A model generated the notes under the pieces. That model saw only the letters and a list, made by a program, of their open reading frames with translations. It did not search any database and was not told the DNA's origin. DNA of 64,000 bases, taken from the NCBI GenBank assembly GCA_963681505.1, contig OY811971.1, forward strand, positions 12,764,732-12,828,731. Direction: 5' to 3'. The DNA comes from Eunapius fragilis. Its lineage: Eukaryota; Porifera; Demospongiae; Spongillida; Spongillidae. Of the stretch, positions 56,720 through 63,912 are shown in pieces. Both the position numbers and the translations under genes were made by a program. The first letter of the stretch is position 1, and the number at the start of each line of letters is the position of its first letter.

Positions 56720-57044
56720 ATCTGCGTCGTCTTTTCTTGCTCGCTTCGTCTCAGTGTCTTTTTCGTACCGCGCCCGTCCAGCGTCTCATCATCAGAGATA
56801 CAGTTTGAAAATACAAATTAAAATAGGATGACGAGGGTCTGTACCTTGCCCTTTTCTTAACCCGATCTCTTCGATTTCTTTGCTCGCTTCGTTTCAGGAT
56901 CTTTTTCGTATCGCGCTTGACGAGCGTCTCGCATGGGTCATCATCATAGCTACAGTAAGAAGCAAGTATATACATGTTGATAGATGTGAAGATACAATTT
57001 TAAAATAGGATGACGAGGGTCTGTACCTTGCCCTCCGATTCACT
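56720..57044 (-). pseudogene. duplicated Arg/Lys-rich coding segment
   Basis: Two direct copies (about 56728-56852 and 56880-57034) share TTGCTCGCTTCGT, TCTTTTTCGTA, GAGCGTCTC and ATGACGAGGGTCTGTACCTT. On the - strand they encode basic peptides such as VKRDTKKILKRSEQRNRRDR and RVKKRARYRPSSSYF. The 8-base target site of the element at 57053 lies at the end of the second copy, and related sequence (GGCTCGCTTCAGCTCAGAGT) resumes beyond 61877. The transposon thus split this repetitive basic gene family. Confidence 0.45.
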
Positions 57045-57052
57045 GAAGATCC

Positions 57053-57290
57053 TAGTCTGGGGACCAGACCCATGGCATAATTGTGCATTGGGTCTGGCCA
57101 AACGTGCATACCCGAGTTGTTCTGATTAGTTTATTGTTTATACGATTTCATACGCCACAAAACCATGCCACGAGCCTGAATTTAATCAACACCTACCCTA
57201 CGCGTGCGTGACTTCATACGATGATCCATTGGAGTCAGAATGCAGTCAGAAGCCTTTGTCGAAACGGATACGCCACCAGATTCAGTTACG
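57053..57290 (+). repeat. left terminal inverted repeat with first exon
   Basis: Matches 61868-61628 inverted. Positions 57053-57214 are almost identical (one small indel), about 25 bases differ, and 57240-57290 (first exon) is about 75-80 percent identical. It contains the likely promoter of the + strand gene. Confidence 0.9.
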
Positions 57291-60125
57291 GTAGGAAGGA
57301 CGCCAGGGGGTTTGTTTTCCAATCTCTTGTTACATGCCTAATTTAGATCGAGATAGGGTACCCGTCAGGAAAGAAGCTGTATAACATCAACTCCGGTGGA
57401 TGGAGAGACATAGCCAAGTGTGTTGCTAGACAAAGCAGCTCAAGCCTCGTAAATCGTTGCTTCAGTGAACCGAAAATTCGTGACTGTATGCTAAGAAAAA
57501 TAGGTAGTGTTTTGAAAGAAGAGATAAAACGAATGTGTGCACACAAAACACGTTCGAAGTTTAGGGCTGGGTCATTTAATACAATTCAGAATTTCAAGTG
57601 GATTGAACTATTGGATGATTTGAAAATGCATACCCCAATCTTGTTCAATATACTTCATGCCTGTACTGATACAAAGTTCAACAGGGGAGCCACGATTTGT
57701 GTCTGTGCCGGTATATTGTTCAAGTTTCACTTCTCGCATGTGAACTTGATCCAAAAAATGATATCAGTCATCCTTCATGCTGGTCATTGTGGAAAGAAGG
57801 TATATCAAAGGTTTCTATAATTGCACGCATGACTTACATTGTATTATTTTATGCTGCAGGTGTATACAAGGCTATCACGCCTAGGGCTCTGTATGACTCA
57901 CAGTACAGTTGTAGGACTTCATGAGGCCTCTGGGAAAGATTTTGATGGTAGCGTTCTGAAATGGCGTGACATGCTGCAAGCGAATTGTAAACGTGTTGAA
58001 CAAAGGAATGTTTCCATCTTAGATGAAATGTTAGATGATGCAGGAGATAGTGATAGTGATAATGAAAGTGAAGATGAAAGCAGTGAAAACGAGAGTGAAG
58101 AAGCTCAAAACAGTGAAGATGAAGCATGTGATGAAGAGATGGAAGGTTGTGATCCTGGCAATGTGGATAGTGATATGGATACAGATGAAGAAACAATCTC
58201 ATGTAGCAGTAATGATGAACATGACACTAATAGCATGAATGAGCAGCAAAGCACTGCAGTGTGTTTTGCTAAAAGACCTGTACCATGTACAGAAAGTCTG
58301 GCATCTGCATGTATTCAAGTCGTTCAACCACCAGAAGTACTGCTAGAATATCAAGATGTCGTGGAAGTACCTAAATTAAAATGTGAGCTAGGGTTTAAGA
58401 TCTGTGGAGATAACATTGACAAAAATGTTAATTCACGATATTTGCGTCTAGAAAGGCAAAATACCTCACTCCATTACTTCCACATGTTTGCTGTGCAAAA
58501 CAGAATAAATTTCAGTGAACAGAATGATCAATGTCCTGTTTTCCAGCCAGATGCTGTTAAAGACATAGCAAAAAGCATTCTACCATCTTTGCATGATGAT
58601 CAAGAACTGAAAAAAGAATATTGGTATAATTGTTTCAAGGATTTTGGTGAAGCATTTGAAGTTCTTCAAGTTGTCATTTGATGATCTTGTACAGTGGCAT
58701 ATCAAGCACCCTTTTTATGAAGAAATGTCATCTAAGTCTACAGTGGTAAGCTATAGACATTTACAAGAACATTTATAATGCAATGATTGCCATAGGTTCC
58801 ATTGGGAGTTCTTCGCAAGAATGAGAATAAGCCACAAGAAATGCTTGAGATTCTTACTCACCTTCATCTGTACATACCAAGAATCCATCACTATCATGAA
58901 AAAGTCATCAGCACAGGTGCAGATGTTGTCATTGATGAAACCGCATTGTATCCAATTCTAATGGGTGGAGACCAATTGACTGCAGCAAGAGCCAGGAGTG
59001 CATTGAGACTGAAACTAAACAGCTATACCCCATGCAAGAAACTAGAAGGAATTGTACCTGTTGTTGAAGACTGGCACACAAAAGTAAATCTCCTCAAGGT
59101 ATGATACGCAATTTTGTCAGTTTAGTGAACACTCACTTCTTCTCTTTCAATAGCTAATATGGAAATACTATTACAGTAAAAAGTCCTCTGCAGAACATGG
59201 TACTCTATACCAGCTACGCAATGCAATCCATCGCACTAATGTTGTGTCAAACCCAAAAAAAAATTATAATGCATGTGATGACTTTTTTGTTCTAGCGGTA
59301 GAGAGTCACATCATCAGCCTTACAATGGATATGTTCAATATGACTGATATGGATCAGACTCCTGAAATTGATGATCTTAACCAAATTGAAACCTTGTGGA
59401 TGGAATCAGCAGAGTCAAGAAGGAGAGTGTTACAAACAATAACGACGAAAATAGTGGTCATTGAATTTAGTTTTTAGCAACTTTGAGACACTTAAGACAA
59501 CTGATGACAGGTCAAGCTCTATGGTGAACAACTACTAAGTCTGGGCTGTTTCTATTTGGAGTATTCTGATGCAATTAGAGAAGGGGATGGAATTCGTGTC
59601 CTTCGTTGTTGGAGGTACATGTTGCCTATGTTTGTTAGCTCTCAGCATAGAAATTATGCAATGGAAGCTCTGAACTTGCTTTTGCAGCATGAATTTTTCT
59701 TGTCACCTCGTCAAGCTTCAGAACTTATATGGAGTCGATTTGTAAACATATCTGGTCAGCCAGGGCACAACATACCATGTGACCTACACCTGGAGCACCT
59801 TAATCGTATTCTAAAAGGTTGCATTAACAACTTAGGTGTCAACAAAACTGAACGAAGTATTAGTAGAGTCTCCAAAGCTCTTGGAACCATAGCACCATTC
59901 CTGTACAACTTTGATCAACAATGCAATGTTTCAGAACAATCTGGATTTCATAGCAAAGCAAGTACAGAGAAAGACATGAAGGTTCTTGTTCATGAGTTGA
60001 GAGGGATTTTTACGCCTGTAAATCAACACCGCAAACATAGAACATACCCACATCCCAGAGATCCTTTGCACAGGTTAAGCAAAGAACAAATTAATACATG
60101 GATTGTAGAGCATGTGACATTTTAA
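57240..60125 (+). CDS. DUF6589-like transposon protein, six exons, one frameshift
   Basis: Exons 57240-57290, 57347-57799, 57860-58745, 58796-59098, 59154-59456 and 59511-60125 all join in phase 0. Donors are GTAGGA, GTATAT, GTAAGC, GTATGA and a weak GTCATT; acceptors are TTTAG, CTGCAG, CCATAG, CAATAG and GACAG. The product is about 870 residues. An N-terminal basic/helical part (exon 2) is followed by a highly acidic stretch (about 58020-58240; DSDSDNESEDESSENESEEA) and a conserved region: ICGDNIDKNVNSRYLRLERQ, HYFHMFAVQNRINF, VPLGVLRKNENKPQEM, GGDQLTAARARSA, PVVEDWHTKV, EGDGIRVLRCWRYM, NIPCDLHLEHLNRILKG. These resemble the family I know as DUF6589, common in transposon-rich invertebrate and fungal genomes. 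The many conserved Asp/Glu/His suggest a nuclease-like core (inference). One base appears lost near 58650-58680, where the frame changes before FDDLVQWHIKHPFYEEM. Confidence 0.75.
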
Positions 60126-60159
60126 AATTGCTGCTGGCATTATGCACATTATGTTTTGT

Positions 60160-61678
60160 TTAGTTTACAGTGCATTTATCACACACACGCTGTACCCGAC
60201 ATATGTCACAACAAAGACATTTAGGTGTTATGTCAACATGTTCGAAATAATCAGTTTCATGAAACAATACATCTCTTCTGCAGATGGTTGTGTTCAGTTG
60301 ATACTGCAGCATGCTTTGTTCACAGTACCTGTTCTGATGGTTGACAATGTATAGTGTAGCACTTGCAAAGTTTCCATCTCTTCCACCTCTCCCTGTTTCC
60401 TGAATGTATGACTCTATATCATCAGGAGCACCAAAATGTATAATATGACACACATCAGGACAATGAATGCCCATTCCAAATGCAGAGGTGGCACATACAA
60501 TCCGTAATGAAGATTGCTTGCTGAATGACTGAACAATCTGTTGTTTGACTTCATCATCAGTGCAACTAGTGAACATTTCAACAAGTCTAAATGTAGTTAC
60601 ATCTGGGGCATCGAAAGGATCTAAAAAATTAACTCCCAGACCGTTTTTGAAGTACACATACAGATTGCAACAATCCTCAAAACATCTGCAATATATTATA
60701 ACACGAGGGTGTGATGTTTTTAACTGTTTCATAGAATCCAACAAAGGAGAGAAAGTATTCACAAGAGTAGTGAACCTTGAAACACAGTAGTACATGTTCT
60801 TCTTGCAGGTTGGTAGTAATATTACAATAGGATCAATCATTCCAATTATCTTCATAACATCACATCTGAGAGAGGCATTAGCAGTTGCTGTTAATGCAAG
60901 AACGTTGATATTTTTTGGAAGTATGCTTCGTATTTCCCCTATTCTGTGCAAAGTTTTTCTAAACGTGTCACCCCTATAGTACAGTTTAGAAATGCACAAT
61001 TACATTGTATATCATACATGTACACCCAATAAGACCATACCATTTCTTAACAGTATGTGCTTCATCAATAACACAGCACTTTATTCTTGTAGCGTAGGTG
61101 ACATCTTGAAGAAGTCTTCTCCACCTTTTATTCTCTAGAAGTGCCTCGGGGGTGAAGTACAACAGTTGAAAGTTTCCTGCAATGGCATCCTTGATCATTG
61201 CATGACTTGATGTGCTCGTAATAAATCCAGCAGCCAAACCTCTTGACACAAAAAGTGAAACCTAATTTAGAAGGTGACATTTAAAAATATACTGATGTTC
61301 TTAGCCGCAAAATGTTACCTGGTCTTGGATTATTGCAGTTAGAGGTGTAACAACTACAACAATAGAATGATTTTTCACGCCATCCAATTCGTCAAACATG
61401 ATTGGTAGGCAAGCGTAGCATAAACTTTTTCCATATCCAGTAGGCAAAACAGCAAAAACATCTCTTCCAGTAGCAATAGATAACAAAACTTCTATTTGGT
61501 GCTCCTTCAAGGAAGCATAACCCAATTTTTGAGCCGCATAATGTGCCGAATCTTTGACAAGGCTATGCGAAGTCTTGACGTATATATATGAGCTGGATTA
61601 TCTATGTAAGAATGTGCAATAGCCTACCGTGACTGAATCTGGTGCTGTAACCGTTTCAACGAACACTTCTGAATGCAT
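60160..61678 (-). CDS. RecQ-like superfamily 2 DNA helicase, four exons, intact
   Basis: Exons 61678-61628, 61573-61319, 61261-61041 and 60973-60160 join in phase (0, 0, 2) and give 446 residues without a stop. Helicase motifs in order: an N-terminal Gln motif region (LGYASLKEHQIEVLL), Walker A LPTGYGKSLCY (motif I), VVVTPLTAIIQDQ (Ia), a DEAH box in VIDEAHTVKKW (II), LALTATA (III), RVIIYCRCFEDC (IV), VCATSAFGMGIHCPDV (V) and ESYIQETGRGGRDG (VI). After the helicase core come cysteines in a zinc-binding arrangement (CLCCDICRVQRVCDKC). It is smaller than cellular RecQ and lacks a clear winged-helix or HRDC domain. It probably unwinds DNA during transposition or repair of the donor site (inference). 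The second-exon acceptor could be at 61574 (chosen, keeps phase) or at 61552. Confidence 0.88.
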
Positions 61679-61868
61679 TTTGCCTCGTTTACTACAACTG
61701 AGATGAAGTCACGCACGCGTAGGGTAGGTGTTGATTAAATTCAGGCTCGTGGCATGGTTTTGTGGCGTATGAATATCGTATAAACAATAAACTAATCAGA
61801 ACAACTCGGGTATGCACGTTTGGCCAGACCCAATGCACAATTATGCCATGGGTCTGGTCCCCAGACTA
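61628..61868 (-). repeat. right terminal inverted repeat with first exon
   Basis: Inverted counterpart of 57053-57290. It carries the likely promoter and the first coding exon (61678-61628) of the helicase gene. Confidence 0.9.
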
Positions 61869-61876
61869 GAAGATCC

Positions 61877-63369: not shown

Positions 63370-63912
63370 CTATATGGAAGTTTCTAACGAAACTTCCGAT
63401 ACAACATGCCATAACAAACCTTTGGGTGGTAGTGGTAGTTCTGTGACCCCTGCGGTACCGAGTCCTCCCGGAAGCACATTTATAATGAGCCAATCGGACA
63501 GCGGGGTCATTCCAATACCGACTGCTTTTAGATGCTTTAATGGCAGCTGCATTGTCCTTGTATTTCTGCCTTTTAGCAGCGCGGTTTCCCTCGAGGTCCT
63601 CATCATATCGCCGCCTTTTAGCAGCACGGTTCTCCTCAAGGTCCTCTTCAATCGCCGCCTTTGTGTAGTACGGTTCTCCTCAAGGTCCTCTTCATATCGC
63701 CGCCATTTAGCAGATCGCTTAGATTCAATATCGGCCTTGTAGCTGTCGCGTGCAGAGGCCTTCTGATCGGCCTTGTAGCTGTCGCGTACAGAGGCTTTCT
63801 TCTTTTCGGGATTGGCCGTGTATAGCACTCGGGCTTTAGCTTTGTTCTCGTCATGCTTTTGGAGGTATTCCGCTCGTTGCTTAGATCTCTTCTTTTGATT
63901 ACAAGAAGGCAT
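63370..63912 (-). CDS. N-terminal part of a basic repeat protein, probably transposon-associated
   Basis: Starts MPSCNQKKRSKQRAEYLQKH at 63912. It continues with repeated KKKASVRDSYKADQKASARD-like units and then a repeating ESKRSAKWRRYEEDLEENRT pattern. The period is about 14-16 residues, rich in Arg/Lys/Glu. The pattern RRYEEDLEENR recurs in the adjacent frame as well (RRTVLHKGGD is its shifted reading), so small indels have shifted the frame within the repeats. The C-terminal part (TPLSDWLIINVLPGGLGTAG) is in a different style and stops at 63370. Similar Arg-rich repeat N-termini are familiar to me from sponge transposon proteins, often ahead of helicase domains; nothing of that kind follows here, so it is truncated or spliced to sequence not recognised. 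Confidence 0.5.
   Translation of the reverse strand: MPSCNQKKRSKQRAEYLQKHDENKAKARVLYTANPEKKKASVRDSYKADQKASARDSYKADIESKRSAKWRRYEEDLEENRTTQRRRLKRTLRRTVLLKGGDMMRTSRETALLKGRNTRTMQLPLKHLKAVGIGMTPLSDWLIINVLPGGLGTAGVTELPLPPKGLLWHVVSEVSLETSI

Follow-up and report, generated by a model that had tools for sequence, protein, structure and literature searches.

A multicopy transposon of the sponge Eunapius fragilis pairing a RecQ-family helicase with a DUF6589 protein, most likely a DDE transposase

Structure of the element

The stretch analysed in this study (hereafter the window) comprises 64,000 nucleotides of the genome of the freshwater sponge Eunapius fragilis (contig OY811971.1, positions 12,764,732 to 12,828,731) and contains a DNA transposon at window positions 57053-61868. 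The element carries two genes read towards each other, one for a protein with a DUF6589 domain, which is most likely the transposase, and one for a RecQ-family helicase. The features are as follows:

57045-57052: left target site duplication, GAAGATCC, exact match to 61869-61876
57053-61868: transposon, 4816 bp, ends common to two further copies, each with its own 8-bp duplication
57053-57295, + strand: left terminal inverted repeat, 243 bp, 90.2% identical to the reverse-complemented right end
57240-57290, + strand: candidate first transposase exon within the left repeat, MQSEAFVETDTPPDSVT followed by GT, predicted from the sequence
57347-57799, + strand: transposase exon 2, spliced model, matched by a profile of relatives
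57860-58745, + strand: transposase exon 3, acidic stretch and motif GDNIDK (58406-58423; first D candidate)
58796-59098, + strand: transposase exon 4, part of DUF6589 with GGDQLT (58964-58981; second D candidate), PF20231 E 1.7e-8
59154-60125, + strand: transposase exon 5, part of DUF6589 with DLHLEHLN (59781-59804; E candidate), PF20231 E 2.4e-25 (59508-60125)
60160-60973, - strand: helicase exon 4, Helicase_C and C-terminal Cys cluster, Helicase_C E 3e-13
61041-61261, - strand: helicase exon 3, DEAH motif
61319-61573, - strand: helicase exon 2, nucleotide-binding motif, DEAD E 9.4e-10
61628-61678, - strand: candidate first helicase exon within the right repeat, MHSEVFVETVTAPDSVT followed by GT, likewise a prediction
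61623-61868, - strand: right terminal inverted repeat, 246 bp
61869-61876: right target site duplication, GAAGATCC, exact match to 57045-57052

The inverted repeats were almost perfect over the outermost 165 bp; the perfect inverted arms, 95 and 71 nt long, happen to take in one base of each duplication. No direct repeat longer than GAAGATCC was present at the flanks, and at a given position 8 bp would match exactly by chance in about one of 65,000 cases. The exact ends, 8-base duplication, long inverted repeats and two convergent genes described in the initial annotation were thus all found at the coordinates listed.

The outermost 17 bp at each end (57053-57069 and 61852-61868) could form a small hairpin (GTCTGG / CCAGAC), and this palindrome was kept in the related families L036 and L038 and not in L011 and L014. 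A perfect 35-bp direct repeat, with its units at 56818-56852 and 57000-57034, 182 bp apart, lies immediately outside the left end of the element.

Copies and target site duplications in the genome

The genome searched comprised 219 Mb in 24 contigs. The 19-bp terminus, with up to two mismatches, occurred 118 and 116 times, compared with 2 and 1 times for the reversed control. A second full copy (L009, C12:5600093-5604917; hereafter the C12 copy) was 99.3% identical and had its own duplication, GTAGGAAG. A deletion derivative (L010, C1:20160486-20162340) shared the same ends and was flanked by another 8-bp duplication, GGTTCTTT. Further, there were end-only copies of 39-94 bp, likewise flanked by duplications. 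A real multicopy transposon is thus confirmed at 57053-61868, almost intact as the initial annotation had proposed; the full sister copy, deletion derivatives and end-only copies all support this.

Two spurious end pairings (in L017 and L025) were set aside in the count of duplications. Among 41 elements for which both ends were read, 20 had exact duplications of 8-10 bp at their flanks (12 of 8 bp, seven of 9 bp and one of 10 bp), three had a duplication with one mismatch, and 18 had none. One of the 9-bp cases (L041) was uninformative because it lies inside a poly-C run. In the family of the window element the duplication was 8 bp in nine of ten copies and 9 bp in the remaining one, and sister families in the same genome had duplications of 8-10 bp and of varied sequence.

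The 18 elements lacking a duplication included five copies of 1.4-2.5 kb with TAGTCTGGGTACC ends and common flanks (L031-L035, C1:8007586-8096074), which represent one old insertion multiplied by regional duplication. They also included eight with a 46-bp end pair and similar left flanks (L053, L057, L058, L059, L062, L066, L067 and L068); this end pair is probably an end-only copy riding within another repeat.

The DUF6589 gene and its product

The + strand gene was matched by Pfam PF20231 (DUF6589) in three exons (E 1.7e-8, 3.9e-5 and 2.4e-25), the match at 3.9e-5 being below the family score cut-off; the assignment to DUF6589 made in the initial annotation is therefore upheld. In the C12 copy the five joined exons encode 888 amino acids (aa) without a stop. 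Judged against that copy, the gene in the window carries at least two lesions. The frame is lost near 58610, in exon 3, and the interval 59457-59510, which looks like an intron, is likewise out of frame; in the C12 copy the coding sequence runs through it uninterrupted. The initial annotation had recognised only one lesion, a frameshift that it placed near 58660, so that both the number and the position required correction.

DUF6589 proteins were widespread, occurring in sponges, cnidarians, amphioxus, fish and bivalves. Named full-length relatives were found in the sponges Ephydatia muelleri, Amphimedon queenslandica and Halichondria panicea, as well as in Clytia, Branchiostoma, several fish and Mya, the closest being that of Ephydatia (48%). 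In viral and prokaryotic collections, the DUF6589 profile gave 25 and 130 pattern matches, respectively, none of which was confirmed as a relative. One DUF6589 protein (P0071) carried a bacterial label (uncultured Candidatus Thioglobus, SPONN_105) and is probably derived from sponge DNA in a symbiont assembly.

The predicted models of two relatives resembled the P-element, Hermes, ISCth4 and RAG1 transposases, the predicted fold being an RNase H core with a helical insertion. With VIA-align, P element and Hermes were the best solved folds for both models. The relatives also conserved the D, D and E candidates (equivalents of D191/D194, D358 and E616). Because the predicted folds resemble known transposases and these candidates are conserved, the DUF6589 protein is most likely a DDE transposase. 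The same two observations speak against setting the protein apart from the DDE transposases, as the initial annotation had done. Its proposal of the protein as the candidate recombinase is supported. Linking Pfam DUF6589 to a transposase role would suggest a likely function for many unannotated animal genes.

P-element, THAP and hAT domains were absent from Pfam scans of eight window pieces (E <= 1) and of seven relatives (E <= 0.1), and NCBIfam gave no match for three relatives. The Pfam results bear on whether the element could represent a new DDE superfamily with a helicase, apart from Academ and nearer to P elements or hAT. Such a placement would fit the top rank of P element and Hermes among the solved folds and the predominance of 8-bp duplications in this family, and our literature search found no paper naming DUF6589 and no published link between DUF6589 and Academ. 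Against it, Academ elements already catalogued pair a transposase with a RecQ helicase, according to a passage in PMC3627910, the sister families with duplications of 9 or 10 bp fall within the range of AcademH, the helicase-bearing Academ lineage, and none of the domains typical of P elements or hAT was detected in the scans above. A new superfamily is thus considered unlikely, and a relationship to AcademH is preferred.

The helicase and its association with the transposase

The - strand gene encodes a RecQ-family helicase of 446 aa, open over four exons with GT-AG introns, with DEAD and Helicase_C domains. Its best sequence matches in the PDB were bacterial RecQ, WRN and BLM, and the same exons were open in the C12 copy on frame inspection, with a few substitutions. 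Both its RecQ-like identity and its fully open state had been correctly called in the initial annotation.

When 35 stretches were scanned (the window element and 34 other loci), DUF6589 was found in 12 and the helicase in 11 of these 12 as well. This association is biased, most of the loci having been retrieved through DNA similarity to the complete element. The only DUF6589 locus lacking the helicase was the internal-deletion copy L010, and helicase pieces alone were found in three loci (L026, L028 and L045). In a less biased sample of 15 end pairs (L029-L043), only two exceeded 4 kb (L036 and L038), and both had the two genes tail to tail, although L036 also overlaps a match from the whole-element similarity search.

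Measured against a relative on contig C18 (L011), three transposase exons had ratios of nonsynonymous to synonymous substitution rates (dN/dS) of 0.10, 0.15 and 0.21, and helicase exon 4 had one of 0.19; synonymous sites were saturated in several other comparisons. In addition, the pairwise identities of the two proteins were correlated across eight elements (Mantel r 0.96, reached in 0 of 5000 permutations), L013 having been dropped from the nine loci since its transposase piece had no columns in the compared part. The transposase and the helicase have diversified together across these eight related elements, down to about 40% identity.

Alternatively, the helicase might be a passenger, a captured host gene without a part in transposition. 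Some copies indeed lack it (the mini elements and L010), and the end-only copies still have duplications, so it is not needed in cis; non-autonomous copies, however, could borrow both proteins. Purifying selection on the helicase as strong as on the transposase, the co-diversification of the two proteins, and the same convergent layout in distant families all speak against a passenger, which we consider improbable. They favour the helicase as a long-term partner, the role assigned to it in the initial annotation. The young, near-identical copies provide material for testing why some cut-and-paste transposons need a RecQ helicase of their own.

Candidate leader exons within the terminal repeats

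In the family of the window element, the coding sequence of the left repeat reads MQSEAFVETDTPPDSVT and that of the right repeat MHSEVFVETVTAPDSVT; both run into a GT donor, and the phase is identical in the two. A corresponding pair, MSANISKPGTIGGSIVSPPSVT and MNASISKPGTIGGFIVSTPSVS, was found in L011. Both genes thus seem to begin in matching short coding exons within the repeats in two families, a new detail. In line with this, the modelled helicase exon 2 contained no other Met ahead of the nucleotide-binding motif. The left and right leaders of the same element were alike at 42 of 51 bases in the window element and at 59 of 66 in L011, whereas leaders of the two elements agreed at only 31-35 of 66 bases, the pattern that homogenisation of the arms inside each element would be expected to produce.

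Each repeat may thus supply a promoter, a start codon, a leader of 17-22 residues and a splice donor, giving two co-expressed proteins with matching N-terminal leaders; judged from the nucleotide sequence, we put this tentatively, at a little short of an even chance. A common leader, if translated, could pair or co-localise the transposase and the helicase.

The inverted repeats of L014, L017, L036 and L038 were only 70-73 bp long, and the candidate gene starts lie beyond them. The pattern suggests an inward growth of the repeats in one branch, across a gene start, after which they were kept alike. Relatives (L014 231-700, P0122 and P0140) had an N-terminal region with paired cysteines, for which a zf-AD match in P0140 of Clytia was weak and below the cut-off. 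The paired-cysteine region was absent from the transposase of the window element's family, in which the repeat-borne candidate leader takes its place.

Other features of the window

Two adjoining tandem arrays with units of 45 and 36 bp were found at 63568-63800. An Rfam scan of the window gave no match.

Proposed mechanism and comparison with known systems

We propose, with a probability of roughly 0.85, that the element is a DNA transposon with terminal inverted repeats that is moved by a DDE transposase (the DUF6589 protein), encodes its own RecQ-family helicase and works like AcademH. Transcription would start within each inverted repeat, the position of the promoter being putative, and the two genes would be read towards each other. 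The transposase would bind and cut the ends and join them to the target with a stagger of 8-10 bp, and the helicase may unwind DNA during excision, strand transfer or repair. Of this scheme, the ends and duplications, the further copies, the gene content, and the selection on and co-diversification of both genes were read from sequence, and the DDE fold is a predicted one.

Several results weigh against the proposal, as does the sampling bias noted for the association of the two genes. Foldseek gave no significant match: the best for the first model was P element (E 0.21), and for the second model ABC transporters ranked on top (E 0.023), with Hermes at rank 17. The DUF6589 profile, run against the sequences of solved structures, retrieved 0 chains at E <= 10. 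Further, a passage in PMC10045372 gives target duplications of 9 or 10 bp for AcademH, outside which the window element lies with its 8 bp, as do nine of ten copies of its family; the comparison with AcademH is one of make-up and duplication length.

Kolobok elements have the target duplication TTAA, whereas the duplications here are 8-10 bp and varied. KolobokH, as proposed for the present element, combines a DDE transposase with a RecQ helicase, but as described in a passage of PMC9587614 it has a single downstream helicase domain and is found in fungi only, and together with the duplications this makes a Kolobok transposase with a RecQ helicase very improbable here.

Both P elements and hAT elements produce 8-bp duplications. 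With these (Hermes for hAT) the present element shares that length and, in the predicted model, the helical insertion in the RNase H core; it differs in having no detectable sequence similarity, in that no THAP or hAT dimerisation domain was found, and in carrying a helicase. MuDR of maize also has two convergent genes, whose transcription starts in long terminal inverted repeats as is proposed here, but it belongs to another transposase family and is not known to carry a helicase. To our knowledge, no shared coding leader exon is known in MuDR. AcademX comprises Academ elements with an XPG nuclease, and no protein joining DUF6589 and an XPG nuclease was present among the 18 listed proteins (precomputed domain column). 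The AcademX duplications of 3-4 bp, given in a passage of PMC10045372, also differ from the 8-10 bp found here.

The closest counterpart is AcademH, a named helicase-bearing Academ lineage of animals and fungi (Kojima, 2020, Mob DNA 11:15), with which the element shares a transposase, a RecQ-type helicase and an animal host. According to a passage of PMC3627910 that cites them, Kapitonov and colleagues had reported a RecQ helicase in Academ before 2013. Transposons that combine a transposase with a RecQ helicase are therefore already known, and the novelty implied in the initial annotation does not hold. That annotation had allowed for the family being already catalogued under a named superfamily; this is probably the case, AcademH being the candidate, but is not proven by sequence. 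Because of the 8-bp duplication, and because no Academ transposase sequence was compared, the element is not formally filed as AcademH; it most likely works like AcademH and is a relative of it. To the known system the present analysis adds the 8-bp duplication, the repeat-borne candidate leader exons and DUF6589 as the probable transposase.
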